From a virus, in the IMG/VR virus record IMGVR_UViG_3300035145_002311, positions 1 to 47,534 of that record: a stretch of DNA of 47,534 nt. One strand, given 5' to 3'. The position numbers and the translations under genes were made by a program. Position 1 is the stretch's first letter; each line of letters opens with the position of its first letter. Below are positions 5,287-22,323 of this stretch, one piece after another. The notes below the pieces were generated by a model. The model was not told the origin of the DNA. It made no database searches and worked only from the letters and a program-made list of their open reading frames with translations.

Positions 5287-6192
5287 ATGAAGCCATATCA
5301 GAGAGTCGCCACTCGACATTACCATAGAAATCTATCTTTGAGAGCGTCAATGTGGGCAATCCAAAACAGCCCCAACACTAGAGTCTCAAGCACAATCACT
5401 CGTGAGATAGATGTCCGAGTATTGAGCGTGTTTGGTGAGGGTATGCTCCGACAAGCCCACAACAAAACAGCGATCATCAAAGGTCTAGGTAAAAAGCTCA
5501 AAGAGCTGTACCAAGCGTTTCAAAAAGCACCTACACTTTGGGAGAAGTTCAAAGAGGTTTTAGGGATCACATCAACGAACCCTGCAACGCTCTACTTTGA
5601 GCTATCGGAGAAGTTTCAAAACCTCTTAGACGAAGGTGCTAGGTGGTGGAGTAGCTTAAAGAAGAAGATGCAGAAAGACAGTAAGATCATGCACTTCCTG
5701 TTCCTGTACGCATCTAATGCCCCTACCTTCACCTCGATTGTTGAAAGCGTACTTGAAAAACATGGAGGAAAGACAGGCGAGCTAGGCAAGTGGTTATCAA
5801 AGACAATCTCACCTGTGGTCGGCAGAGCAAAAGATATGTCGCAATGGATAGACAACTTTTTAGAGAGGCATCCTTTGCTGAAGCTCATCACGATGCCTGC
5901 TAAAGCGTATCTTTATTGGGTCATCTGGATCAATGTGACGGAGATCAGTTGGAAGATCTCGGACTTGATAAAAGGATTTCTAGGCATGATCTCGTGGACG
6001 GACTTACTCGAAAGTCTCCCCGAAAGTGGTGTTGGATTTATCGTAAGTCTGTTGTTTCCTGGCATACCTGGAGGTTGGCTCGCTAAGTCTCTATCTATCG
6101 GATGGAACGCAATCTTAGTACCTGCTGTCGGGTTGCAGTTATATGCTCTCTACACTAAAGGCTTAGTAAACGAACAAGGACAACCAGTATGA
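5287..6192 (+). CDS. helical protein with MKPYQRVA tag and hydrophobic C-terminal segments
   Basis: Unknown product of 301 aa, and the first of the tag-bearing genes. Its N-terminus MKPYQRVATRHY recurs in the next two genes. The body is predominantly helical and rich in K, W and L. The C-terminal 100 residues hold three hydrophobic stretches (around PAKAYLYWVIWI, VGFIVSLLFPGIP and NAILVPAVGLQLYALY) that could insert in a membrane. The RBS AAAGGAG lies in the right arm of the inverted repeat. The end overlaps the next start by 4 nt (ATGA), so translation is probably coupled. A packaged protein that is later ejected and membrane-active is a plausible but unproven role. Confidence 0.75.
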   Translation: MKPYQRVATRHYHRNLSLRASMWAIQNSPNTRVSSTITREIDVRVLSVFGEGMLRQAHNKTAIIKGLGKKLKELYQAFQKAPTLWEKFKEVLGITSTNPATLYFELSEKFQNLLDEGARWWSSLKKKMQKDSKIMHFLFLYASNAPTFTSIVESVLEKHGGKTGELGKWLSKTISPVVGRAKDMSQWIDNFLERHPLLKLITMPAKAYLYWVIWINVTEISWKISDLIKGFLGMISWTDLLESLPESGVGFIVSLLFPGIPGGWLAKSLSIGWNAILVPAVGLQLYALYTKGLVNEQGQPV

Positions 6193-6737
6193 AGCCATGT
6201 CAAAGAGTCGCATTAAGATATGCTAGGCGATTAGAAATCGAAAACCCAAACCGAGCAGAGAAGATCAAGTACACCGTTAAGGGTGATGTAAGTCGCTACT
6301 TCCAAGTCATCATTTATCATGGTCGTAAACGCATTGGTCAAGTTCAAGGTGGTCTTGAAAACAGTACGCTAGTTCCTATTTGGGAAGGGAAAAAACCTCC
6401 TGTTGAGGGTCTAAAGTGTTCAAGTGATGTTCTATCACTTGTAGATAAATACCCACAAGTAGTTGAACAGGATTGGAAAGGTAGACCCAAAGCGAGAGTT
6501 ATTTCCGTCTCTAACTCAGCGATTGAAGACGAGTACAAAGGCAAGAAGATAGGCACTGATATGTACCTCGCCTTTGCTAGAGCTTATTGGGACGAAACAG
6601 GGAAGCCATTTATCTTCATACCCGACGGTTGTAGGGGTGCAGGTTCAACTAGCGATGATGCTAAAAGAGTATGGGCTTCACTTGGTCGTAGGATGCCATC
6701 TTCTGGGTTATGTCTAGCCATCCTTAAAAGACCATAG
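6189..6737 (+). CDS. GNAT-like acetyltransferase paralogue 1, tagged N-terminus
   Basis: Probable GNAT-fold protein of 182 aa. It opens with MKPCQRVALRY, the tag shared with 5287 and 6749, and the RBS AAGGA lies 8 nt upstream. The acetyl-CoA pyrophosphate loop is KGKKIG (117-122), followed by TDMYLAF; the canonical (R/Q)xxGx(G/A) has Lys in place of the middle Gly. The C-terminus carries the block PFIFIPDG...TSDDAKRVWASLGRR, which is also conserved in the proteins at 6749 and 7285. Donor binding may be altered, and activity cannot be assumed. The acceptor is unknown. It lies in a three-gene paralogous run. Confidence 0.72.
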   Translation: MKPCQRVALRYARRLEIENPNRAEKIKYTVKGDVSRYFQVIIYHGRKRIGQVQGGLENSTLVPIWEGKKPPVEGLKCSSDVLSLVDKYPQVVEQDWKGRPKARVISVSNSAIEDEYKGKKIGTDMYLAFARAYWDETGKPFIFIPDGCRGAGSTSDDAKRVWASLGRRMPSSGLCLAILKRP

Positions 6738-6748
6738 GGGCAATCAGT

Positions 6749-7288
6749 ATGAAACCATATCAAAGAGTAGCTAGTCGCTACATGAAAGCCAATTACCAAA
6801 AGGGCAACATCACCATTGATGTCTCCACTGACTATGACGATAGAAATGCTAATCTTGGTGTTGAGCTTCAAGTTGATGGTGAATACAAGGGGCATTGTGA
6901 AGCCCATGTAGCTTTCTATACACTAGAAGAAATGGGTAGAGGTCATTTTGCCTGTGCAGATGACATTGAGAAGCTATCCGAAGAGTATTGGTTTGAGGAC
7001 GAAATGCTTCGATATGAAGATGGAGATGAACCAGTTATTCTTGTTGTAGAAGTTATTAGTTCCTATCTCCATGAGTCTCTACAAGGTCAGAGATGTGGAG
7101 TTCAAATGTATGTTGAGTTAGTCAAAGAAGCGTTCCTTGAACATGGTAGATTGCCTTTGTTGTTCATGCCTAACTACTGCCACAACAGATCTACCTCGGA
7201 TAAGGCACTAAGGGTATGGAAATCATTCGCTAAGAAGTATCACTCGGAGGGTGATGTTATCGTCATAGATAAGATGCCCCACCTGTGA
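6749..7288 (+). CDS. GNAT-like acetyltransferase paralogue 2, tagged N-terminus
   Basis: 179-aa protein starting MKPYQRVASRYM, with AGGGG 8 nt upstream. The coding start sits in a DNA-level repeat, since CAGTATGAARCCAT is shared with the 6189 gene. The C-terminal half aligns with its neighbours: QGQRCGVQMYVELVKEA (112-128), then LPLLFMPNYC and STSDKALRVWKSFAKK. The CoA-loop position reads QGQRCG, with Arg replacing the middle Gly. The first half is acidic (WFEDEMLRYEDGDE) and differs from paralogue 1. Its stop overlaps the GTG start of the next gene. Confidence 0.7.
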   Translation: MKPYQRVASRYMKANYQKGNITIDVSTDYDDRNANLGVELQVDGEYKGHCEAHVAFYTLEEMGRGHFACADDIEKLSEEYWFEDEMLRYEDGDEPVILVVEVISSYLHESLQGQRCGVQMYVELVKEAFLEHGRLPLLFMPNYCHNRSTSDKALRVWKSFAKKYHSEGDVIVIDKMPHL

Positions 7289-7626: not shown

Positions 7627-7628
7627 TA

Positions 7629-7676: not shown

Positions 7677-8246
7677 ATGGCTAAACATAACATACCTATA
7701 AGTGCAGAGCCACTACACGCATTACCAGACCATTGTCAGTTTGTTGATGTCAATACCATCCTTTGTCAACACATGGGCGAAGAAGGGGATCCAGAGCGAT
7801 GCGAGATCATCGAGGGAAATGAGCTACTTTGTGGACCAGAGAACAAAGAATGTGAGATCTCCGAGACAGGTATAGCCTGCAAAACCAAAGCAGAAATCGT
7901 TGATTGGAGAGCTGAAGGTCGTGAAACACATGATGTCTTTATGGGTCATGTGTATCTTGTAGTCAACGCCGCTATCTTGAGCCTAGCGATCACTCAGATC
8001 ATTAAGCCCTTCATCTTCAAAACCTGTAAAGAGAAGGCTGACGCTGTGATCCGACTTGTTGCTGTTTTAACAGGAGCGGGTATTGCAGTCACCTTATCAA
8101 AGCCATTTATGATGATTGATGTCTATATGGGTGCGAGTGCGGGTGCTTTAAATGCGTTCGTTATCAAGATGTTCAAAGCAAAGGTTAAGAAATCACTTGG
8201 TGTCGAAACCACACCCGAACCAGAAGATGTTAAATCCGATGATTAA
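7677..8246 (+). CDS. membrane protein with three cysteine-hairpin repeats; holin-like candidate
   Basis: 189 aa, RBS AGAGGTGA. Residues 20-68 contain three short repeats bounded by cysteines 10-11 residues apart: CQFVDVNTILC (20-30), CEIIEGNELLC (42-52) and CEISETGIAC (59-68). Disulphide-linked hairpins are possible if this part is extracytoplasmic. The C-terminal half has about three hydrophobic segments (VYLVVNAAILSLAITQII; LVAVLTGAGIAVTLS; MGASAGALNAFVIKMF) and ends in a charged tail. A three-helix membrane protein of this size is compatible with a holin, but nothing proves it. It overlaps the next gene by 8 nt. Confidence 0.75.
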   Translation: MAKHNIPISAEPLHALPDHCQFVDVNTILCQHMGEEGDPERCEIIEGNELLCGPENKECEISETGIACKTKAEIVDWRAEGRETHDVFMGHVYLVVNAAILSLAITQIIKPFIFKTCKEKADAVIRLVAVLTGAGIAVTLSKPFMMIDVYMGASAGALNAFVIKMFKAKVKKSLGVETTPEPEDVKSDD

Positions 8247-10998
8247 GTCAGCAATGGTATCTAATGAACACTCGGTAGCTCTAATGAAGTGGCTCTCAAG
8301 AGCAACTAAAAGACTAGGTAGAGATGTTGCTGAAAACACTTATGTAGTCGGTGGGGCTATACGCAACTTTAAGCTCAATAAGCCAGTTAAAGATGTAGAC
8401 CTTGTGCTTGACTCCATAGCTCTTGGAGAGAACTCGGCTTGGCTCGCTGACGAACTAGCAGACATGATTCCTGCTCGGACTGAAACTGTGAGCGATCAGT
8501 ATGGTGTCGCCAAGATCTTCGTTAAGTCTGAATGGGTCGTAGACGGTCTTGACCTTAGTGAGTTTAGTGCAGACGGTGATGCGGCGATTGAGATCGTGGA
8601 CGCTAGATCAGAGACTTACTCTGATGACACAGGGGGTGGGTACAAACCCTCGATCACCAAATCCACTATTCGAGAGGACATCTATCGTAGAGACTTTACC
8701 TTCAACACTCTTATGTGGAGGTTAGCTGACTTAGCAGACGGACCTGATCAAGCAGAAATCGTAGATATGACAGGCTGTGGGTTAGCTGACTTAGAAGCTG
8801 GCGAAGCAAGGTGTCCACTAGACCCCGAAAAAACATTCTATGATGACCCTACTCGTATTCTTAGGGCTGTTAAGTTCCTCGTCAAATATGGTCTGAACAT
8901 CCCTCATGACACTAAGAAGGCAATCCTAAAGACGAGATACGCTCTAACCAAAGTCCCGCCGAATCGCATCTACGGTGAGATTAGAGGTGTCCTCTCCGAG
9001 AGAACATGGGAGAGCGTTTTAGATACCTTTGAAGAGTTAGGTCTGATTGAGGTGCTTGCCGACATAGCCGAAGAAGAACCTAGCTTCAGAGCGGCACTAA
9101 GTACAGAAGCGAAGAAGCTACCCTATAGGTTCTTCATTAGGATGCTCAACTTAGGTATCTCCCTTCGACATGACCTGTCGGTCTTAGATCGAAATCAGAT
9201 CGCTAGGCTAGAGGAAAAAGCCTTCGCCTTAACGGACGAGGAACAGAGAGATCTTGTTAAATACATAAAGTCTCCTGGTGGTGCAATTAAAGACAAATCT
9301 TTCCTCCCCACCCTTGCTAGACATAAGGGTGTCGGAAAGTCGAACATGAGAGATTTTATGTCTCGCAAAATGGATCAACTAAGAGAGATGTATGTCTCTG
9401 ATCCATCAATCATAAATGACCCAAATCTAATCAAGAGAAGGATTTCTAAAATGGCCAGAAGAAAGAAACTAGCTGTCTCAAACGCTCACTCAACTGCCCT
9501 TATGAAGTGGCTCTCAAGGGCAACTAAATCTATGGGTCGGGGAGTGGCAGAAAACATTTATGTCGCAGGTGGTGCTATTCGCAACTTTATGATTGATGTA
9601 CCAGTGAAAGATGTAGATGTTGTAGTAGACGCTGAAAATCTAGGAAGGGATGCCGAGTGGGTTGCTAATAACCTTGTAGACATGATCCCTGCACAGACCC
9701 ATGTGATGACTGACTGGTATGGCACACACATTTGGGTAAACTCCGAGTGGATCGTAGACGGTGTTGATCTTAGCGAGTTCTCAAAAGATGGCGATGCGGC
9801 TATCGAGATTAGAGATGTTGAGGAATACCCCGAAGAAGAGAAGTTAGAAGGGTCAAATCTCTACACCTCCCTAACAAACAGAGACTACACATTTAATATG
9901 CTTATGTGGAGACTATCTGACTTAGCTGATGGTCCAGATAAAGCAGAAATCATTGACATGACTGGCTGTGGCATTAGGGATTTAGAAGCAGGTGAAGCAA
10001 GGTGCTTCTTAGATGCTGATAAGACCTTATCGAAAGACCCGACACGCATCCTTCGTGCGGTTAAGTTTGTGGTCAAATATGGGTTGACCATCCCCAAAGA
10101 TACAGCTCAAGCAATCAAAAGAAACAAGCACAAGCTAAAGGATCAGAGTCCAGATCGGGTCTATCGAGAGCTACTCCATATCTTTAAGTCCAAGACATGG
10201 AAAGACGCACTTCTTACACTCGACAAACTAGGTGTTATTGAAGTTCTCGTGGAGATAGCTAGAGAGCATAAATCATTTAGGGCGGCTTTATCTACGCACA
10301 GCAGAAAGCTACCCTATATGTTTTTCATCAACCTCGTGAATCGGGGCTTCAACCTTCAACATGATCTCGGCACACTTAGTCGTGAACAACTAAGGCGAAT
10401 GGAAGAACTGTCTCTTGAGCTAACTCCAGAAGAACAAAGAGAGTTAGTCGAAGCGTTGAGATCCCCAAGTTCCATTTTAAAAGATCGTAGCTTGTTGCCT
10501 ACTCTCGCAAGAAATCAAGGATTCTCTGGTAGAGGGATGAAAGACTTTATGATGTCTGTGTCCTCAAAACTAAGGAATATGTATCTCTCAAACCCAAGCA
10601 TCATCTATGACAAGGAGCAAGTCAAAGAGAACCTCATGTCTGACTTACCAGCCATTCGAGTCGCTTCTCGCTATATGGAAGCTCGCTTGTTTGGACTACT
10701 TAGCAACCACATTGGGTGGCAAGATCTCAGCCGATTTGAAAAACAGCTACAGTGGATGTTCAAGAAAGGGCAACACAAAGTCACTGGTGTTCTTGACCGA
10801 AAAGGAGAGAGGATCATCAAGATTGAAGCCCCAAACACTAAGATTTCTATCAGTGGGTTCACCCAAAGTGGATCGGGCTATGACTACAAAAACTTAATCG
10901 TAGAGGTCAATGGTCGGGTCGTCAAAAAGACTGATGACCTTGAGGTAGTACGCAAGTTCGTTGACAAGACTCTCTCGGACATTGGTTTAAGACACTAA
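8239..10998 (+). CDS. tandemly duplicated CCA-adding/poly(A) polymerase-like nucleotidyltransferase with C-terminal extra domain
   Basis: 919-aa polyprotein. Two complete class II nucleotidyltransferase modules lie in one frame. Module 1 has VVGGAIRN (36-43), the catalytic pair D52/D54, RRDFTFN (150-156), DDPTRILRAVKF (202-213) and a PNRIYGEI neck motif. Module 2 repeats all of these (VAGGAIRN, D458/D460, RDYTFN, DPTRILRAVKF, SPDRVYREL). Both have Asn where the family signature GGxxRD has Asp. The third part, from residue 800 (MSDLPAIRVASRYMEA), is a separate domain of about 120 aa. Likely chemistry is nucleotide addition to an RNA 3' end. The start is ambiguous: 8239 (chosen, overlapping the previous stop), 8254 or 8227. 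ATG 9451 has its own AAGGA and could also initiate. Confidence 0.88.
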   Translation: MIKSAMVSNEHSVALMKWLSRATKRLGRDVAENTYVVGGAIRNFKLNKPVKDVDLVLDSIALGENSAWLADELADMIPARTETVSDQYGVAKIFVKSEWVVDGLDLSEFSADGDAAIEIVDARSETYSDDTGGGYKPSITKSTIREDIYRRDFTFNTLMWRLADLADGPDQAEIVDMTGCGLADLEAGEARCPLDPEKTFYDDPTRILRAVKFLVKYGLNIPHDTKKAILKTRYALTKVPPNRIYGEIRGVLSERTWESVLDTFEELGLIEVLADIAEEEPSFRAALSTEAKKLPYRFFIRMLNLGISLRHDLSVLDRNQIARLEEKAFALTDEEQRDLVKYIKSPGGAIKDKSFLPTLARHKGVGKSNMRDFMSRKMDQLREMYVSDPSIINDPNLIKRRISKMARRKKLAVSNAHSTALMKWLSRATKSMGRGVAENIYVAGGAIRNFMIDVPVKDVDVVVDAENLGRDAEWVANNLVDMIPAQTHVMTDWYGTHIWVNSEWIVDGVDLSEFSKDGDAAIEIRDVEEYPEEEKLEGSNLYTSLTNRDYTFNMLMWRLSDLADGPDKAEIIDMTGCGIRDLEAGEARCFLDADKTLSKDPTRILRAVKFVVKYGLTIPKDTAQAIKRNKHKLKDQSPDRVYRELLHIFKSKTWKDALLTLDKLGVIEVLVEIAREHKSFRAALSTHSRKLPYMFFINLVNRGFNLQHDLGTLSREQLRRMEELSLELTPEEQRELVEALRSPSSILKDRSLLPTLARNQGFSGRGMKDFMMSVSSKLRNMYLSNPSIIYDKEQVKENLMSDLPAIRVASRYMEARLFGLLSNHIGWQDLSRFEKQLQWMFKKGQHKVTGVLDRKGERIIKIEAPNTKISISGFTQSGSGYDYKNLIVEVNGRVVKKTDDLEVVRKFVDKTLSDIGLRH
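9437..9453 (+). promoter_or_regulatory. internal ribosome binding site and start before nucleotidyltransferase module 2
   Basis: AGAAGGA followed by TTTCTAAA and ATG at 9451, in frame with the long gene, lies exactly at the junction of the two modules. It is a better RBS than any before the presumed start at 8239. It could yield a free 515-aa product (9451-10998), or be a relic of the time when the modules were separate genes. Confidence 0.45.
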
Positions 10999-13000: not shown

Positions 13001-13177
13001 TTGTGTCTCCGATTGATCGGGTTAAAGGCTGACTTATTGGACATCTATCCAAGTCAGCGTCTACCTTATCACACATAGACCAATGGAGCAACCCCTTTAT
13101 CTCTCTTTTATAAGATTTGTAGTTCGTTTATACTTGGTATCTTCTGTAAAACTTATCTATCGGAAAGCGAGAGAGAT
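13001..13177. promoter_or_regulatory. divergent region between the 13000 gene and the large paralogue pair
   Basis: It contains GCAACCCCTTTATC (13088-13101), a near match to the 12-mer of the polA region; the copy of GTTCGTTTAT at 13122-13131, which ends 46 nt before the start at 13178; and a leader closely similar to the one before the second paralogue at 15627. A weak pairing is possible between GTATCT (13138-13143) and AGATAT around the start codon. The RBS of the 13178 gene is the GAGAGAG tract. Confidence 0.5.
13122..13131 (+). promoter_or_regulatory. GTTCGTTTAT element
   Basis: Exact same 10-mer as at 15572-15581, ending 46 nt before the start codon at 13178. It is a candidate phage promoter core. 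Confidence 0.5.
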
Positions 13178-13324
13178 ATGAACATAAAACAGGCAAATCA
13201 GATGCTGGATCAGATCAAGAAATCTGGCCTCCACACCAAGACCAAAGTTGCTCAAGAACTTGTAAGAGAGCTTGAGCAGTACATCAAATCAGCGGGTATG
13301 AAAAAGCAAGCTGATCTGAGGTTG
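13178..13324 (+). repeat. duplicated 147-bp tag-coding segment, copy 1
   Basis: Codes for the first 49 residues of paralogue A. It matches 15627-15773 at all but about 11 of 147 positions, almost all synonymous, while the downstream coding sequences are far more diverged. The upstream leaders (13122-13177 and 15572-15626) are also alike. Confidence 0.85.
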
Positions 13325-15565
13325 TACCTACAAAGTGACGGAGAGCTTAAAAAGATCTTCTTCTATTGGGCGAGTGCCGCTCTCTCACAGATGACAGGTG
13401 AGCCAGAGCTACAAGGGATGACTATCCCAGATGTTGGTGCGGACTCCCCCACAGAGTATGGGACAAAGATCCTCAACCAACTTGGTGGAGTTGGTAGCTT
13501 TGCACAAAGAATGAGAATGCGTAGGCGACAAGCAAGTGTTGCAAGATACGCAAACTTTTTGAACAATCTCTATGAGGAGCTTAAACCTGTACTCAAGAGA
13601 AGCATCAACAGTACCTATGGTGCTTTTGTTAATAACAACCAAGAGTTTACGAGACTAAGCAACGACATCCTTGAGGATCTTTGGCAAAGAGCTACGATGT
13701 GGGCTGTGACTGGTAAAAGAGATAATGCTGTAAGAGATACAGATGTCACCCCTTGGAAAAGAATCTCTGAAAGAGTTGAGGGTGGAGGATCTGTCGCTGA
13801 GAGAGTTATGGGTGCTATCCGTAAGGGTGTACTTAGTGCGATGGCTTCTAAAGGTCGCTACCTAACTCTTGACGAAAGAAGAGAGCTAGGGATAGATGAG
13901 ATCGCAAAAGGAGTAAAACTAAGAAACGAGTCCATTGAGGGTCAATCTGCCGAGGGCGAAGAATACAGCAGACTCGATCAGTTATCCGCCGAGGGTCATA
14001 TTGAGAATAATCTCGGCGGATCCAACACCGAGAAATACATAGAAGAAAAAGGTCTTAGCGATGAAGAACTCGATAAGATTGAGGGTCTTTTAACTGACGG
14101 AAGTTTTGATAACGAACCATTAAAGTGGCTCACAGGGCTAGAGATGCTTTTGTTGTCCGACCACATTAGTAATGATGATGCTCTGATCTCTGACACCTTG
14201 AAACCAGATTTCTTTGCTGGTGTATATGATAGTGTCGAATCAAATGCTCTCGCTAGAAAACTCCTTGAGATGACAGGAAATCCTGTCACCGATGAGCTTG
14301 AAGAGCTTATCAGAAGCTATCATTCGGGTGAACTCGATGAGCTTGATCGCCTTGATGCAGAGTATGACCTTGTTAATGACGGTTGGATGATTGATAACAT
14401 CGAAGTCTCTGTGGAGGCCGAAGAAGCAGTCCAGATGATCGAGACACAAGCAGATCAGATGGCAAATGTCGCTATAAGTGGTCTGAGTTTACCCGAAGGT
14501 CAGCTCGGAGAAGTGATCGCTGAACTAGCTAAAATTAACCTAAAGCTAGAGCACATGAAAAAGCTGTCAAAGATGTTCACCGAAGATGGTTTCAGTTGGA
14601 TGCTTGATGCTAACCTGTACCTCGATGACACAGAGTGGGCTTTAGCTCTTAGAGAATCCGACCCTCAAGCCTTGAGAGCTATCCAAGACACAATCGAAGA
14701 GCATCAAGAGCCTCTTTTACCTCTAGGGTTAAAGCACATCTTTAACTCTGCTGTCTTTGCTGACAAAGACAAGGTGGTAGCGATTAAAGAGTTTGCTGAT
14801 AACTGTATGGATCAAGCTGTCGTTAAAAAGTTTATCGGTGGCAATAAAGGACCTCTCGGTTGGTATCTTGAGTTAGCTATCGTCTTAAACGGTGGATCTG
14901 TCTCTTTAAAAGCAGGTGGAAAGTCTGTCAAAGTTGAAGTAGAAGGAGGATTAAAGTTCTTCAAAGTCACTCAATCAGTTTACAAAGGTTTAGTAAATGC
15001 ACTTATGGTGGCTTCTGACGCTGAGGTTGCAAAGATTACGAAAGACCTCGAAGATCTTGTCGCTCCGTATAGACCAAACGGTTTGGATTATAAGATGTCT
15101 GACTTTTTGAAGAACATCCTTACTATTGCCAATAATCCAAAATACAAATCTATCCCACAGAAAGCAGGGCAAGCTCATAAAACCGTCACAAACAGTGGAG
15201 GTAAACTTAAAGGCTTCTACAGTGGCATCGCTGGTGAGCTTGTTCGCTATCGTTTCTACCTCGACATTGGTATGACCGAAGGTACTAACTTACCAAAGGG
15301 TCTAGGTAATGCTGACTGTGACAATCGTGTCCGATACCTTGTCGGACCAATTCCTACAAAAGAGTTAAACGAGGTTAAGAGCGAGGCTTACGATCAGTTT
15401 ATCTTACCAAACTGGTCGAACGAAGTTCAGTCGGCTCTAAAAGCAAGAGAAGAGTTCTTTATAAAGAAGAAACTCACAGCGAGAAACGCAGTTACAAAGG
15501 TATTCAAAGAGTTCGGGATCGAGCCAGGTACTGATCTGTATGAGGCATTTGTCCACTTAGGTTAA
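13178..15565 (+). CDS. large paralogue A, candidate internal virion protein
   Basis: 795 aa, function unknown. Residues 1-49 are identical to those of paralogue B at 15627 except Asn7/Thr7; after that the two proteins diverge but stay alignable along their length, for example GRYLTLDERRELG against GRFLTQTQRIEFG, and KEFADNCMD in both. The region 270-480 is very acidic and rich in E, D and L; the C-terminus is basic (EEFFIKKKLTARNAVTKVFKE). There are no membrane segments or known catalytic motifs. It lies directly upstream of the baseplate genes with its own promoter-like element. The lysine- and leucine-rich shared N-terminus followed by diverged bodies is what a targeting peptide would look like. 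Confidence 0.8.
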   Translation: MNIKQANQMLDQIKKSGLHTKTKVAQELVRELEQYIKSAGMKKQADLRLYLQSDGELKKIFFYWASAALSQMTGEPELQGMTIPDVGADSPTEYGTKILNQLGGVGSFAQRMRMRRRQASVARYANFLNNLYEELKPVLKRSINSTYGAFVNNNQEFTRLSNDILEDLWQRATMWAVTGKRDNAVRDTDVTPWKRISERVEGGGSVAERVMGAIRKGVLSAMASKGRYLTLDERRELGIDEIAKGVKLRNESIEGQSAEGEEYSRLDQLSAEGHIENNLGGSNTEKYIEEKGLSDEELDKIEGLLTDGSFDNEPLKWLTGLEMLLLSDHISNDDALISDTLKPDFFAGVYDSVESNALARKLLEMTGNPVTDELEELIRSYHSGELDELDRLDAEYDLVNDGWMIDNIEVSVEAEEAVQMIETQADQMANVAISGLSLPEGQLGEVIAELAKINLKLEHMKKLSKMFTEDGFSWMLDANLYLDDTEWALALRESDPQALRAIQDTIEEHQEPLLPLGLKHIFNSAVFADKDKVVAIKEFADNCMDQAVVKKFIGGNKGPLGWYLELAIVLNGGSVSLKAGGKSVKVEVEGGLKFFKVTQSVYKGLVNALMVASDAEVAKITKDLEDLVAPYRPNGLDYKMSDFLKNILTIANNPKYKSIPQKAGQAHKTVTNSGGKLKGFYSGIAGELVRYRFYLDIGMTEGTNLPKGLGNADCDNRVRYLVGPIPTKELNEVKSEAYDQFILPNWSNEVQSALKAREEFFIKKKLTARNAVTKVFKEFGIEPGTDLYEAFVHLG

Positions 15566-15571
15566 TCGTTA

Positions 15572-15581
15572 GTTCGTTTAT
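15572..15581 (+). promoter_or_regulatory. GTTCGTTTAT element
   Basis: Ends 45 nt before the ATG at 15627 and begins 6 nt after the stop of paralogue A. It is preceded by TTAATCGTTA, shared with the copy at 17964. Confidence 0.5.
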
Positions 15582-15584
15582 ATT

Positions 15585-15629
15585 CATATCTCTCTTGTAA
15601 ACTTATCCATCGAAAGTGAGAGAGATATG
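15585..15629 (+). promoter_or_regulatory. leader hairpin enclosing RBS and start codon
   Basis: CATATCTCTC (15585-15594) is the exact reverse complement of GAGAGATATG (15620-15629). The 3' arm contains the Shine-Dalgarno tract and the start codon of paralogue B. The 25-nt loop could let ribosomes or a protein open the structure. Confidence 0.6.
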
Positions 15630-15773
15630 AATATAAAACAAGCGACACAGATGTTGGATCAGATCAAGAAATCTGGCCTCCACACCAAGACTAAAGTTGC
15701 TCAAGAGCTAGTAAGAGAGCTTGAGCAGTACATCAAATCAGCGGGTATGAAAAAGCAAGCTGATCTGAGGCTT
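15627..15773 (+). repeat. duplicated 147-bp tag-coding segment, copy 2
   Basis: Partner of 13178-13324. Only one of the 49 encoded residues differs. Confidence 0.85.
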
Positions 15774-17957
15774 ATCAAGGAGGATGATAAAAGCCTTCTC
15801 CATCTCTTCGCATATTGGGCTACTGCGTCTTTGCTTAAGCTCAAAGAGCTAGGAGAACCAAGTTTACAAAGCCTTGAGATACCCGAACCACATCCAGGAG
15901 ATAAGGCGATTGGATTTGGATCGCAAGTCATGAGAGGTTTAAGAAGGGGCAATCCCTACGCAGTGATGGTTAATGACCTATATGAAGAGGTTAACGCAGA
16001 TCTCAAAACGAGAATAGACCAAACCTATTCTCGTTTCTTGAGGTATCACAAACCTCGATATGATGTAGGTACTACTCTTGATGACCTGTGGTTCACAGCT
16101 ACTACTTGGGCTATGTCGCACAACATTGATGTCATTGACCGAGCTGAAGAGGGCAGGACAATGAGTAAGGATGCGTATGCGTTTCCTATAATACAAGAAA
16201 AAACCAAAAGGTCATCTAGCGTTGCAAATTCTGTGATGAACGCTATCCAAAATGGTGTTTTTAATGTCATGTCTAGCGAGGGGAGATTTTTAACGCAGAC
16301 ACAAAGGATTGAGTTCGGTGTCGTCAAAAATGAAGAGGGTATTAGCCGAGCTGTAGGTCTTGAGGTAGAAACAGAGGATGAGACTTTCGCCAATCCTGGC
16401 GTAGCGAGACAACTAGTAGAAACCTATTCTCAAAACGAACTTAACGAAATGACTGACGAAGAGTTAGAGAGACTAAAGGTTCGTCTGATTAGAGGTGATT
16501 ATGATGAGAATCTGTATGAGAAGCTCGTCATTCTCAACCAACTCGTCAAAAATGGAAACCTCAAGGCTGGGCACGACTACTTTGAAACTTTATATGACGA
16601 TTTCTCTGAGGGTCGTTTTGATGGGGATTTAAAAGACGCATATAGAGACATATTAGTCGAAGTAGGTGAACTCACTCTTTCAACTGCTGATGGTCTTGAT
16701 CTACTCTCTCGTTTTGAAGCAGGTGAGTTTGATGCCGACCTTCAGCTCAAAGAAGAGATGAAAGAAGAACTCATCGAAAATGGTTGGATCATAAGTAATA
16801 TAGATTCTACTATCGAAGCTCAAGAAGCCGCTGACATGATTGTGGAAACAGCCGAAGAAAGAGCTGAGGCTGTAGTTGATAGTATGAACTTGGGTGAGGG
16901 TGAGCTTCAAGAAGTAGTCAGAGAAGAAATCAAACTCGGACTAGAAATAGCAGAGTTAGAGAAGCTATCTAAGCTGTTCTCGGACGATCAATTCCATTGG
17001 ATGGTTGACTCCAACCTGTATCTACAAGACGAAGAGTGGGCTTACGCTATTCGTTATTTCAACGAAGAAGCGATGTTAGCCCTTCAAGACACCATCAAAG
17101 AACATCAAGCACCCCTTCTCCCTGTCGGTCTGAGATATGTCTTAAACTCAAAGACATTCACAAACCTAGATAAAGTTAAGGCAATCAAAGAGTTCGCTGA
17201 TAACTGTATGGATGCCTCTAAGTTATTCCTTCAAGACACAGGTCCTTTCTCTTGGTATGTAGAGTGTGCCATTTACTTGAATGGGGGTTTGACTTTCAAG
17301 GTAGCAGGTAACGATGTAACAATAACAGTTGACAGCCTCTCCTACTTTATACCTCAATGGATTGGAACACCTCCAGATCGTAATAAGAGAGGGTTTTACG
17401 ATCTCGTTAAGATGATGAGGACTGAGGAGGAGAGGAAAGAACTAGCTAGAAAGATTGACCAAATAGTCAAGCCGATCATACCAGAAGCAAGCAAGATGAA
17501 CGGTAGTCTATGGGTTAAAAAACTCGCCTCCCAAGCAGATCGAAAACAAGCAGTAAGAATAGTTGGTAAAGGTAGAGAAGGCGGTAACAGGCTGAGAGCG
17601 TTCTTTGGGGCTATTGCTAGTGAACTTGTCCGCTATCGTTTTTACCTTGATCTTGGTGTAACCGAGTCAACTAGTCCTCTAGTACCAAAAGGTCTAGGCA
17701 AGGCCGATTGTGATAATACTGTTCGTTCGTTAATGGGTCCAATCCCTACCTCTACGATTAACGAAGTTAAAGAAGAGATTTATAACGGTCAAGTTTTAAC
17801 ACAATGGGGGGAGGAAGTACGAGATGCGTTGGATGCCAGAGTAAAACTCAAATGGAATAAGAAGAGAACATTCAATAACCAAGCTAAAAGTCTATTTAAA
17901 GCGTTAGGTATTACTGAGGACACCGAGCTTTACAAAGCATTTATGGACTTAGGTTAA
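15627..17957 (+). CDS. large paralogue B, candidate internal virion protein
   Basis: 776 aa and homologous to the 13178 product. It has the shared 49-residue N-terminus, an acidic middle (EELERLKVRLIRGDYDEN) and corresponding landmarks: LYLQDEEWA against LYLDDTEWA, EHQAPLLPVGL against EHQEPLLPLGL, IKEFADNCMD in both, and ELVRYRFYLDLG against ELVRYRFYLDIG near residue 670. The C-terminus is lysine-rich. No catalytic motif or membrane segment is seen. The RBS GAGAGAG is buried in a hairpin. Both paralogues are probably made late and in similar amounts, given matching leaders. Confidence 0.8.
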   Translation: MNIKQATQMLDQIKKSGLHTKTKVAQELVRELEQYIKSAGMKKQADLRLIKEDDKSLLHLFAYWATASLLKLKELGEPSLQSLEIPEPHPGDKAIGFGSQVMRGLRRGNPYAVMVNDLYEEVNADLKTRIDQTYSRFLRYHKPRYDVGTTLDDLWFTATTWAMSHNIDVIDRAEEGRTMSKDAYAFPIIQEKTKRSSSVANSVMNAIQNGVFNVMSSEGRFLTQTQRIEFGVVKNEEGISRAVGLEVETEDETFANPGVARQLVETYSQNELNEMTDEELERLKVRLIRGDYDENLYEKLVILNQLVKNGNLKAGHDYFETLYDDFSEGRFDGDLKDAYRDILVEVGELTLSTADGLDLLSRFEAGEFDADLQLKEEMKEELIENGWIISNIDSTIEAQEAADMIVETAEERAEAVVDSMNLGEGELQEVVREEIKLGLEIAELEKLSKLFSDDQFHWMVDSNLYLQDEEWAYAIRYFNEEAMLALQDTIKEHQAPLLPVGLRYVLNSKTFTNLDKVKAIKEFADNCMDASKLFLQDTGPFSWYVECAIYLNGGLTFKVAGNDVTITVDSLSYFIPQWIGTPPDRNKRGFYDLVKMMRTEEERKELARKIDQIVKPIIPEASKMNGSLWVKKLASQADRKQAVRIVGKGREGGNRLRAFFGAIASELVRYRFYLDLGVTESTSPLVPKGLGKADCDNTVRSLMGPIPTSTINEVKEEIYNGQVLTQWGEEVRDALDARVKLKWNKKRTFNNQAKSLFKALGITEDTELYKAFMDLG

Positions 17958-17963
17958 TCGTTA

Positions 17964-17973
17964 GTTTATTTAT
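17964..17973 (+). promoter_or_regulatory. GTTTATTTAT element
   Basis: Ends 43 nt before the ATG at 18017. It is preceded by TTAATCGTTA as at 15572, and its end overlaps the first bases of the long hairpin before the baseplate genes. Confidence 0.5.
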
Positions 17974-18016: not shown

Positions 18017-19057
18017 ATGAGCGAAGATCTACAGATTTCTTATGCTTGCCCTCATTATATTCGCTATGAGAGGGTCGGGCTACAAAATGGTATCTACATT
18101 ATACCAGCATCACCAATCAATGGTGCTGGTCTTGTAGTGATTAAACGAGATGGTGTCGTACTCGAACCTCAAGGCAATAACCGAGAGGCTACCATCACCA
18201 CTCCTAATGTGTCTCCCTTTAGAGTGAGAAGCACATCTAATGTGCTTACAATCACCACCACAGAGGGGTACTCGAACACAATCACTTTACCTACGAAGAT
18301 ATACAACACACAGAGCCTCATCTCCGAAATACAAAGCCAAATCGGAGCGATCAGCGTTGAAGAGACTACATCAAAAGCGTTGAGGTTCTCTGATCGGAAA
18401 CTTGGTATTGGGTTCACCCTCACAGGAAGCCTCTTAAAAGCACTAGGGTTCACCAAGCAAAAGCAAGTCGTTAAGACCAAAAAAACCACACCCGCTTGGG
18501 GGTTAGTTTCAAGGCTCAACGGAAACGATATTCAGTTCAAGAGCAAACTAGAACCAGAGGGCTTGCTAGAAATCTCTTACACGACCGAAAAGATATACTG
18601 TAGACGATGTGGTGGCACAGGGGTAGAGAACGACTTTAGATTCGGCACTGACGGAGATCTTCAAAAAGTACAAGACACAGACCTGCTCTATCAGAACATA
18701 GCTAAGACCCTACTAACAGAGATCGGGTCTAACCCATATCACCCTTGGTACGGTTCAAACGCTAACCGACTCATTGGTCAAAAGAACAATGCTTCGGTAG
18801 GTGTCGCATTAAGGATGAGCGTCCAGCAAGCACTAGATAAGTTGCAGAAAATGCAACAAGACCTCAAGAGGGTACAATACCTCAGCCAAGAAGAAAGATT
18901 AGTGAGCGTTCAATCTGTGGAGGTTTCAGCACTCAATGACAATGCGACCGCATTATTGTGTAATGTGGTCGTTCGTAGTGGTGCTAATCGCCAAGTGAGC
19001 GTAAATATAGTTTTTGAAGTACCAGGTAGCATTTCATTAGATGGGAGTTTGACATGA
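18017..19057 (+). CDS. baseplate protein with gp25-like C-terminal domain
   Basis: 346 aa. The N-terminal 180 residues are beta-rich and unrecognised. They are followed by CRRCGGTG (C195, C198) and then, from about residue 215, a region resembling the gp25/W family of contractile-tail baseplates (LLYQNIAKTLLTEIGSNPYHPWYG, here split as LLYQNIAKTLLTEIG plus SNPYHPWYG; C-terminal beta strands NDNATALLCNVVV). The gp25 core links the tail tube and baseplate wedge. The CxxC pair could be half of a zinc site. The start sits one base after the long hairpin. It overlaps the baseplate J gene by ATGA, the classic order in contractile-tail operons. Confidence 0.8.
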   Translation: MSEDLQISYACPHYIRYERVGLQNGIYIIPASPINGAGLVVIKRDGVVLEPQGNNREATITTPNVSPFRVRSTSNVLTITTTEGYSNTITLPTKIYNTQSLISEIQSQIGAISVEETTSKALRFSDRKLGIGFTLTGSLLKALGFTKQKQVVKTKKTTPAWGLVSRLNGNDIQFKSKLEPEGLLEISYTTEKIYCRRCGGTGVENDFRFGTDGDLQKVQDTDLLYQNIAKTLLTEIGSNPYHPWYGSNANRLIGQKNNASVGVALRMSVQQALDKLQKMQQDLKRVQYLSQEERLVSVQSVEVSALNDNATALLCNVVVRSGANRQVSVNIVFEVPGSISLDGSLT

Positions 19058-22000
19058 GTTATAGCTTAAAAATCGTAAAGCCAGATGGAGTCAGCTCCTC
19101 AACATCAACTAGCTACTCAACCGACAAAGAAGAAGTATTCATTCATGGTCTTGTTGAAGGGTATGACCAAATCACAGTGTCATTCTTAGACGAGACATTT
19201 ACATCCGTGGGTGTAGATGCAGACATCACAATCGCTGACGGATCATGGGTGTTTCCAAATACATCCGAGGGGATCGACTTAAATCAAGGGGCTAACAGCT
19301 TCCTTATCTCGGCAACAGACGGAATAAATACAACATCTTTAACGCTGATTGTTATCTCTAGCCTAGACTCAAACACGGCTAAACCTCAACCTCCCATCAA
19401 CATAAAAGCTGAGAGAGCTGATGATAATGTCGTTCTTAGTTGGGTACACACCGACTCCGAGATCAGCTCTTATAATGTGTACGCTTCAACTGTAAGTGGT
19501 GGTGGTGGAAATGGTTATCAACAGATCAACAAGATCCCAATCGACCCTATCACCTATGGCTTTAAGTCCGAAAAAGTCACCTCAATAGTAGATTTCTCAA
19601 GCGACATCGAAGCGATTGAAGAAGATCCGAATGTCCTCACCATAAAAGCCCTACAGAACACCACCGAGAGTGATGTAGGTACACAAGAGATTGCCGAGAG
19701 CGTGGGTCGATTAAGAGTCGCAACAAATGTGTCCGCTATCGAGTTGGAGACAAAGGTATCTTTCAAACACAATCGAACCAACCCTAACTCTGCGAACACA
19801 ATCGAGATAGGCGAGTTTGCTTCACTCAATGTGAACACTCCTCTTTATTATGTCATCACAGCAGTCAAGGTTGTAGACAACCAATCCGTAGAGTCTACAT
19901 TTAGTGTTGAAGTAGGTTCTGCTCCAATCAACCTACAGCTCATCAACACGACATTACCTAATGTGACCGATTCACAGCTTACAGAGAGCATGATCTCGGC
20001 AATCTACGATGCTGACCCCACAGCGAGTGTTCAAGCAGGTTCAGCGATAAGAGACTTATTCATTGATCCTGTTGTCTCCGAAGTATCTCGCATCAGAGTC
20101 CTCTTAGATTTCTGCTACAAGGCGACTAACTTTGTCTCCCTCAACGATATAGATGACCCCACAGGATTGGGCGAGTCCATCTTCGTATCAAACTCTAGCT
20201 ATAAACAGCTCTTAAAAGAGGCTTATTTCCTCGATACAGACACACAGGTACAAAACCTTATCGACATCTGTTTTGATCGCTTGGCTTCTAATCTAGGGAT
20301 CGTCAGACTATCTGGACAAGTAGCTAGAGGGGAAGCAACTTTCTATTCAAGGTCTTTACCTACTTTTGACCTCATCGTACCTATTGGACAGATCATCTCT
20401 GGTGGAGGTGTGCGTTTTAGGACTCTCCAAGCAGGAACAATCTCTGTTTCTGAAGCACCCAACTTCTATAACCCCATCACACGCAGATATGAAATCACCT
20501 TGCCAATCCAAGCAGACACAGCAGGTCTTAGTGGAAATCTGACATCTGGACAAATCACAACGGGTGCTCCACTTGGACTAAATGTCATCAACAACGCACC
20601 TACATTTGGGGGGTCTACAAGAGAGACAAACCAAGAGCTGATGACACGAGCAATGACTTACATCTCCTCTGTGGATGTCGGCACAAGAGCTGGATATGAA
20701 CGAGTAGCTAGAGAATCAGCAGGTGTGCTGGGCTATGAGGTCATAGATGCCGATAGTCCATATATGCTCCGAGACAACGATCAAGGGGGTAAGGTAGACA
20801 TTTGGGTTAGAGGTGAGCTGTTGAGTCGAGTGACTGATGTATATGCTCCGTCTTACAAATCGAGAAAGGGATCAAGGTTCATCCCGATACAGTCAGAGGG
20901 TGCGTATAAGTTCCAAGCGTCTGATGCCTCCACAGAGAACCCATTGTTTCAAATGATTGACCGAGCAGGTACATTCGGACTCAAAAACCAAACTAACGGT
21001 GAGTTCTTCGATCTTACAGGAGCAACGATCTCCGAGGGTAAGATCCTTATACTCAATCAAGACATACCACAGCCCACATATCGTATGACCGACATCATAT
21101 TAGGAGACTATCGAACTGATGTGACTAATAAAGTCGTGCTTGATAGACAACCTGTCCGACAAGTGATTTCTGTCCGTAAAGCAGACGGTACTGATCTCGG
21201 CTACACCTTCTACAAAACTGAAGATCCACTCGTACAAGGGCAGTCCTCAAAAGCTCAAGACTACATCATCATTGATAATGACGGATTAGAGAAGATCATC
21301 TCAATCACAGCCGAACAGCAGACTCTCAATGAACTCTACACCGAAACTCTATCTAATCGTGGGATCGACATCACAACCATCGTAGTCAAAGACTCAAATG
21401 GCAATACCTTCTCTAGCCCTCTCACATCTTCGACACCAGATTATATTATTGAAGTGAATGGTGATCTGACAACGATCAAGAGGACTACGACAAGCACAAT
21501 CACATCGGGTCAGACGGTCTATGTAGATTATGAGTACCTAGAAAACATTACAGTCACTTATCAAACAAACCTTGTAGTCTCTAACCTACAGCTAGAGATT
21601 GATGAGCAAAAACACATGGGAGCTGATGTCCTCGTAAAAGAGGTGACTCCTGTTCGAGTAAATGTAAAAGGTCTTGTCTACTTAGAGCAAGGAGCATCTG
21701 CTACGAGTGTTGACTCGATTATCAAAGCATCATTATTCAACCTCATAACAGAAACAACGATTGGTGGTAATCTTTACCCTTCCGATTTCATTCGGGAGAT
21801 TGACTCTGTACGAGGTGTTTCTTATGTGTCTGTTCCTTTGACCGAACTTTCATTGACTAGTGGCGACCAAATCCTTCGTGAAGAAGTGAACCCGACAGTA
21901 CCCATAGAGATCACGGAGTTTACAAGCTCTAGTCATAAAGTGTGGCTCATGGATGTGCAACTAGACCATGTACCAGCCTCTAGTGGTGGATCAAATGCTA

Positions 22001-22323
22001 GGGTGTTTTTGAACCGAAAAGAAATCGAAACACTATCGCTAGGACAAAGAGAAACAGCCTCGAACTGGGTCGGAGTGAAAGGGAGCATCGTAGGTTTGGA
22101 GAAAGCCCACATCAGCACTAACGGAGTTCTAACAGAGATCCCCAACTCGGCTCGAAAACTTATGCTCTCATTACCATTAGGGGAAACACCTTTGGATTAT
22201 GAGATTGAGGTCAACTATACCTGTGGAGACGGTACAGGGGTGGTGAGTGAGATCAGATTAAACAACTTTAGCTACTTTCAAGTGGGCGATCTCAGCTTCA
22301 CTTATGAAGAGGAGAGAAGATAA
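19054..22323 (+). CDS. baseplate J-like protein with fibronectin type III-like domain
   Basis: 1089 aa, a baseplate wedge component. Residues about 115-285 read as fibronectin-III-like (PPINIKAERADDNVVLSWVH), with a long insertion. From about 300 to 600 it has the baseplate J pattern: SAIRDLFIDP, LGIVRLSGQVARGEATFYS, VPIGQIISGGGVRFRT, then GGSTRETNQELMTRAMTYI and a run starting GTRAGYERVARES. The C-terminal part is beta-rich. It overlaps both neighbours (ATGA with 18017; 1 nt with 22323), consistent with one translationally coupled baseplate operon. Confidence 0.88.
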   Translation: MSYSLKIVKPDGVSSSTSTSYSTDKEEVFIHGLVEGYDQITVSFLDETFTSVGVDADITIADGSWVFPNTSEGIDLNQGANSFLISATDGINTTSLTLIVISSLDSNTAKPQPPINIKAERADDNVVLSWVHTDSEISSYNVYASTVSGGGGNGYQQINKIPIDPITYGFKSEKVTSIVDFSSDIEAIEEDPNVLTIKALQNTTESDVGTQEIAESVGRLRVATNVSAIELETKVSFKHNRTNPNSANTIEIGEFASLNVNTPLYYVITAVKVVDNQSVESTFSVEVGSAPINLQLINTTLPNVTDSQLTESMISAIYDADPTASVQAGSAIRDLFIDPVVSEVSRIRVLLDFCYKATNFVSLNDIDDPTGLGESIFVSNSSYKQLLKEAYFLDTDTQVQNLIDICFDRLASNLGIVRLSGQVARGEATFYSRSLPTFDLIVPIGQIISGGGVRFRTLQAGTISVSEAPNFYNPITRRYEITLPIQADTAGLSGNLTSGQITTGAPLGLNVINNAPTFGGSTRETNQELMTRAMTYISSVDVGTRAGYERVARESAGVLGYEVIDADSPYMLRDNDQGGKVDIWVRGELLSRVTDVYAPSYKSRKGSRFIPIQSEGAYKFQASDASTENPLFQMIDRAGTFGLKNQTNGEFFDLTGATISEGKILILNQDIPQPTYRMTDIILGDYRTDVTNKVVLDRQPVRQVISVRKADGTDLGYTFYKTEDPLVQGQSSKAQDYIIIDNDGLEKIISITAEQQTLNELYTETLSNRGIDITTIVVKDSNGNTFSSPLTSSTPDYIIEVNGDLTTIKRTTTSTITSGQTVYVDYEYLENITVTYQTNLVVSNLQLEIDEQKHMGADVLVKEVTPVRVNVKGLVYLEQGASATSVDSIIKASLFNLITETTIGGNLYPSDFIREIDSVRGVSYVSVPLTELSLTSGDQILREEVNPTVPIEITEFTSSSHKVWLMDVQLDHVPASSGGSNARVFLNRKEIETLSLGQRETASNWVGVKGSIVGLEKAHISTNGVLTEIPNSARKLMLSLPLGETPLDYEIEVNYTCGDGTGVVSEIRLNNFSYFQVGDLSFTYEEERR

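Follow-up and report, generated by a model that had tools for sequence, protein, structure and literature searches.

The internal head proteins IPII and IPIII of phage T4 possess identical propeptides (PMC9026906), and the capsid targeting sequence (CTS) is conserved on diverse internal proteins of T-even phages (PMC3012670). In the giant phage SPN3US, the paralogous virion proteins gp53 and gp54, which belong to the phiKZ-like paralogue family A (pfam12699), are identical in their first 15 residues (PMC5694885). At the DNA level, partial gene conversion or concerted evolution of tandem paralogues is recognized by locally low synonymous divergence, a tract with breakpoints, and a diverged remainder. 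A narrow literature search found no described case of partial gene conversion in paralogues of tailed phages. Recombination between short repeats, leading to amplification or deletion, has been selected and observed in the laboratory for T4 (PMC9391042).

Here we analyzed a 47,534-nucleotide stretch of viral DNA (record IMGVR_UViG_3300035145_002311; this whole stretch is referred to as the window), in which two neighboring tandem paralogues, genes A and B, share their start. The features concerned are the following.

13178–15565, plus strand: gene A, 795 amino acids, mostly helical, from a family without known match
15627–17957, plus strand: gene B, 776 amino acids, paralogue of A
13178–13324, plus strand: N-terminal 49-codon segment (the tag) of A
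15627–15773, plus strand: N-terminal 49-codon segment (the tag) of B
13163–13321, plus strand: 159-nt direct repeat, copy 1, comprising the 15 nt preceding the ATG and the tag (repeat finder)
15612–15770, plus strand: 159-nt direct repeat, copy 2, 94% identical to copy 1 (repeat finder)

An earlier note on this DNA had reported a nearly identical 49-residue start on otherwise diverged paralogues, and this observation was confirmed. Within codons 1–49, 11 of 147 nucleotides and one residue (N7/T7) differ between A and B, and from codon 50 onward the identity suddenly falls to 38.6% for amino acids and 52.4% for nucleotides across 705 aligned codons. Sliding windows of 49 columns reached 98% identity in the tag and at most 74% in the remaining part of the genes (the body), so that no stretch of the body equals the tag. 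Further copies of the tag beyond these two were not found in the window. The near-identical start shared by A and B is real and far beyond chance.

Like T4 IPII and IPIII and the proteins carrying the CTS, A and B combine a (near-)identical N-terminal segment with differing mature parts. However, the T4 CTS comprises about 10 residues, is found on small proteins inside the head, and is removed by gp21, whereas the segment of A and B extends over 49 residues of ~790-amino acid proteins and is located in a baseplate locus. The resemblance to SPN3US gp53 and gp54 lies in the identical start of giant-phage paralogues, but the SPN3US proteins have propeptides of 124–125 residues, and neither A nor B matched pfam12699 (phiKZ-like inner head proteins) at E ≤ 0.1.

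Two genes downstream of the pair served as yardsticks for the rate of evolution.

18017–19057, plus strand: gp25-like sheath initiator / baseplate wedge gene
19054–22323, plus strand: Baseplate_J (gp6-like) gene

The contig sizes and the contractile-tail genes suggest that the window belongs to a jumbo myovirus group. The best explanation for A and B is that of an old tandem pair of paralogues located among the baseplate genes of a jumbo phage, where each copy has its own promoter-like element. The nearest INPHARED records displayed only remote similarity in the baseplate genes (33.5% identity for a 485-kb uncultured phage, followed by Tunturi_5 and phage G), and no A/B homologue was found at the corresponding locus of the 485-kb phage record. 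Among 50,697 phage records no known relative of protein A was detected, and a search with the tag returned only noise; a bacterial genome collection also yielded no relative. A search for tag-less relatives that used only the body gave matches solely from the same phage group.

Close relatives were taken from IMG/VR. Both genes are present in L004 and L005 (contigs of 109 and 227 kb), which are identical to each other over 18.4 kb including both tags, and in L003, a separate contig record that has the arrangement of the window with 100% protein identity and is perhaps not an independent sample. A single gene copy occurs in L006 (a 375-kb record, to which most window genes map in order), in L008/L009/L010/L012/L013, in L011/L016, and in L017. 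All of these sequences stem from metagenome contigs and the 159-nt repeat is about as long as a short read, which would fit an assembler confused by this repeat. Such an assembly artefact is extremely improbable, however, because L004 and L005 originate from two differently numbered datasets, because the arrangement recurs in the possibly non-independent L003, and because the 11 differences between the tags are coherent, with B-type flanks.

Each of the two genes is preceded by a promoter-like element.

13120–13131, plus strand: promoter-like element TAGTTCGTTTAT 5' of gene A
15570–15581, plus strand: promoter-like element TAGTTCGTTTAT 5' of gene B

The earlier note had also stated that the leaders of both genes match. 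This holds true for the promoter-like 12-mer and the stretch just 5' of the ATG, but the B leader otherwise resembles, for the most part, the leader of the orthologous B gene in L005 and not that of A. The 12-mer TAGTTCGTTTAT is an element of the TAGTTTNTTTAT type, which also precedes the window genes at 7627 and 17962. In the 375-kb relative, exact TAGTTTNTTTAT was found at 41 sites on both strands, and 37 ORFs have it 22–126 nt (mostly 40–67 nt) upstream of their start. Since the motif is distributed genome-wide and the B leader follows that of L005 B, the matching leaders mostly reflect a common regulatory element. The idea of a leader duplicated together with the gene was discarded, as the main shared element occurs throughout the genome. 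Its place before baseplate genes suggests that the TAGTTTNTTTAT-type element may be a late promoter.

The TAGTTTNTTTAT element is also linked to a different N-terminal tag, MRRSASE[IV]IRxLExRIARLERQA, which is carried by 31 ORFs with mostly unrelated bodies in the 375-kb relative (L026–L044; for example L030:15435-15776, L033:5303-5881, and L035:11206-11916). The element lies upstream of 18 of these 31 ORFs compared to 19 of 369 other ORFs (Fisher p = 2.6e-13). Three other relatives had about 12–15 matches to this tag in each of their records, and one of 30 scanned ORFs contained a clear Pfam domain (WGR). In L029:18106-19824 (residue 303) and L039:14815-15855 (residue 161), the MRRSASE tag is internal and follows a methionine; these ORFs might be gene fusions, contain internal starts, or encode polyproteins that are processed. 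The MRRSASE tag has the appearance of a genuinely portable tag and possibly serves virion packaging. The 49-residue tag resembles it weakly, and kinship of the two is not claimed, because hhalign returned a P of 3e-4 but a probability of 39%, and an HMM placed gene A of the relative in the noise (E 2.5). Another motif, (MKPYQ)RVAxRYM(KA), is located at the N-termini of the window ORFs 5287–6192, 6189–6737, and 6749–7288, and near residue 836 inside the ORF at 8152–10998; in the 375-kb relative it was observed at the N-termini of several ORFs and in internal or C-terminal positions in others. The ORF at 8152–10998 (948 amino acids) contains poly(A) polymerase / tRNA nucleotidyltransferase domains; in L004 and L011, its C-terminal part is encoded by a small ORF of its own.

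For the uniformity of the tag, the earlier note had offered two explanations, gene conversion or very strict selection on the peptide. If the tag were a targeting or assembly signal under extreme purifying selection, recombination would be unnecessary, and the conservation of the tag in all relatives (82–92% identity to window A), with 36 of 49 columns invariant across them, is consistent with such a scenario. However, the synonymous sites match as well. In the comparison of A and B, 8.5 of 29.7 synonymous sites of the tag differ, dS was 0.36 for the tag and 2.25 (saturated) for the body, and pS was 0.29 for the tag and 0.51 for the lowest 49-codon window of the body. Selection on the peptide alone fails to account for these data, because the synonymous sites are unsaturated in the tag and saturated in the body.

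The orthologues from related phages provided a second line of evidence. Compared to L005, L008, L011, and L017, respectively, the tag of window A is 92, 90, 92, and 82% identical; the values are 93, 92, 94, and 86% for the gp25-like gene, 94, 90, 91, and 86% for the Baseplate_J gene, and 80, 59, 70, and 59% for the A body. The dN/dS ratio between orthologues was 0.07–0.27 for the tag and thus not below the values of the baseplate genes (0.05–0.10 for the gp25-like gene and 0.06–0.08 for Baseplate_J); the body had a dN/dS of 0.21–0.30. The body is thus the fast-evolving part, and unusually strict selection on the tag is not supported. Body windows equaled or exceeded the tag in all tested pairs of A genes except window–L008; in pairs of A with B, no body window did so. 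Moreover, the A and B tags of L005 differ at 5 of 49 residues. Judged from these comparisons, the evolution of the tag between A orthologues is ordinary and proceeds at approximately the rate of the neighboring baseplate genes. Hence, the comparison with related phages favored conversion and spoke against very strict selection on the peptide, which we regard as very unlikely to be the cause of the shared start.

A DNA or RNA element in the first 147 nt could also be constrained at the nucleotide level. The pS of the tag was indeed the lowest, or nearly so, among the 49-codon windows for L008–L017 and for window–L017 (0.36 compared to 0.65 in the flanks). This effect was not seen in all pairs, as the pS of the tag was ordinary for window–L005, window–L006, window–L011, and L008–L011, so that the tag lies below its flanks in some A-only pairs and not in others. 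Such an element is highly improbable as the main explanation; a contribution of constraint on the DNA, or of exchange between phages, to the similarity of the tags is possible.

Further evidence for gene conversion came from the distribution of informative sites within the tag of B.

15676–15761, plus strand: inferred minimal conversion tract in B (tag nt 50–135), with an A-like core and B-type ends (permutation p = 0.0012)

In the quartet of window A, window B, L005 A, and L005 B, the tag contains 4 sites shared between paralogues versus 4 shared between orthologues, and the body contains 7 versus 630 such sites. Nucleotides 1–48 of the window B tag are identical to L005 B with zero differences, nucleotides 50–135 follow window A except at one informative site (nt 66), and nucleotides 145 and 147 are B-type again. 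The tract was assessed by a two-breakpoint maximum chi-square permutation test on 20 informative sites, with the tract chosen after viewing the data; the reciprocal test on window A gave p = 0.017. The same test was not significant for the L005 pair (p = 0.30 and 1.0), in which three derived-looking sites (nt 50, 114, and 117) are common to both tags. These patterns argue for one conversion tract in the window lineage, which is well supported, and make repeated conversion, which rests on fewer sites, likely. A and B resemble tandem paralogues known to undergo partial gene conversion or concerted evolution in the hallmarks named at the outset: synonymous divergence that is low locally, breakpoints that delimit a tract, and divergence of the remainder.

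Alternatively, a single past crossover may have placed a distant homologous body on a copy of the start of A, with no ongoing conversion. The sharp edge at codon 49 in both pair-bearing phages would fit such a capture, as would the B leader and first 16 codons, which are B-type in both. In addition, pS between the window and L005 was 0.20 for the B body compared to 0.36 for both the A body and gp6, which suggests that B moves between phages. However, the A-like core in the otherwise B-type tag of the window and the derived sites shared within each genome call for at least one later event, and such a single capture is unlikely.

Gene conversion is further supported by the structure of the locus in the relatives, where a second pair of repeats is relevant.

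15530–15581, plus strand: 3' repeat, copy 1, at the end of A, with the stop codon and the promoter-like element that comes next; together with copy 2 it brackets B
17922–17973, plus strand: 3' repeat, copy 2, at the end of B; in L006, the sequence beyond this copy is joined directly to A

The next two genes of L006 are 99.7 and 98.5% identical to those of the window, yet L006 lacks B. The gene is missing exactly between the 3' repeats, and A continues straight into what the window has downstream of B. The join is located inside the repeat ACTTAGGTTAATCGTTAGTT..TTTAT, which ends both genes in the window. Because L005 carries both genes, loss of B is the simplest reading for L006, and transfer of B between phages is a possible alternative. 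This repeat-bounded gain or loss of a gene resembles the short-repeat recombination of T4, but the T4 events were observed under laboratory selection, whereas we infer the loss of B by comparison. Adjoining A, L006 also has a variable region (L006:3041-5824) with two additional ORFs of 488 and 432 amino acids, which have similar LxLTHTGxGPxDPRT starts and are not found at this place in the window.

The distant single-copy gene of L017 (L017:8001-10307) has an A-like N-terminal half (83–96% in columns 61–150), and its C-terminal half is nearer to B in parts (87% identity to B versus 68% to A in columns 721–750). This gene is probably an A/B recombinant. Together with the low synonymous divergence limited to the tag and the tract in B, the loss and mosaicism in the relatives support the proposal of the earlier note that gene conversion keeps the segment uniform.

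AlphaFold predicted two helices in the tag region (residues 3–15 and 23–52), with a drop of confidence at residues 38–52, and this prediction is compatible with the tag being a separable module. The full-length model was of modest quality (pTM 0.39), and the C-terminal part reached a pTM of 0.64. A Foldseek search with the predicted structure returned nothing at E ≤ 0.001, and sequence searches against Pfam, PHROGs, PADLOC, and PDB returned only noise, so that we assign no function to the bodies. The 49-residue tag was not found on proteins outside the A/B family in the window, six relative records, and the viral_contigs scans. As the tag is confined to the A/B family, it is at most a candidate for a portable targeting signal. 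A search of the two largest relative records for prohead proteases yielded neither Pfam S77 nor Pfam S78, and the S77 search gave no signal in any control either. By analogy with the phage proteins described above, a role of the tag in assembly or virion targeting is conceivable. It might form a separable two-helix N-terminal module for assembly, for example by docking into the virion, with the fast-evolving bodies carrying a variable function, and we offer this functional reading tentatively.

We consider it probable that the shared start results from segmental gene conversion in addition to purifying selection of ordinary strength, and that this takes place at a tandem locus which is prone to recombination and whose gene bodies evolve fast. 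In this explanation, homologous recombination (gene conversion) in the phage lineage homogenizes the first ~150 coding bases of A and B, and the bodies diverge without conversion; both steps are strongly supported by the comparisons presented above. The two pairs of repeats (tag and 3' ends) would render the locus recombinogenic, so that a second copy can be gained or lost and mosaics arise, which the single-copy relatives support. A more far-reaching scenario, which we regard as doubtful in its entirety, would have the tag act both as a functional N-terminus and as a landing module for recombination. At this one baseplate-adjacent locus, the phage group would then swap, add, and lose rapidly evolving bodies via crossovers in the tag and the 3' promoter repeat, and A and B would be virion proteins docked or delivered by the tag, itself a distant kin of the MRRSASE tag.

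The case of A and B offers a way to tell selection on a peptide from homogenization of the underlying DNA. With its fast-evolving protein bodies, the locus would provide a natural example of segmental gene conversion from a giant phage. In addition, the promoter-linked MRRSASE tag found genome-wide in these phages may mark proteins that are packaged into the virion.
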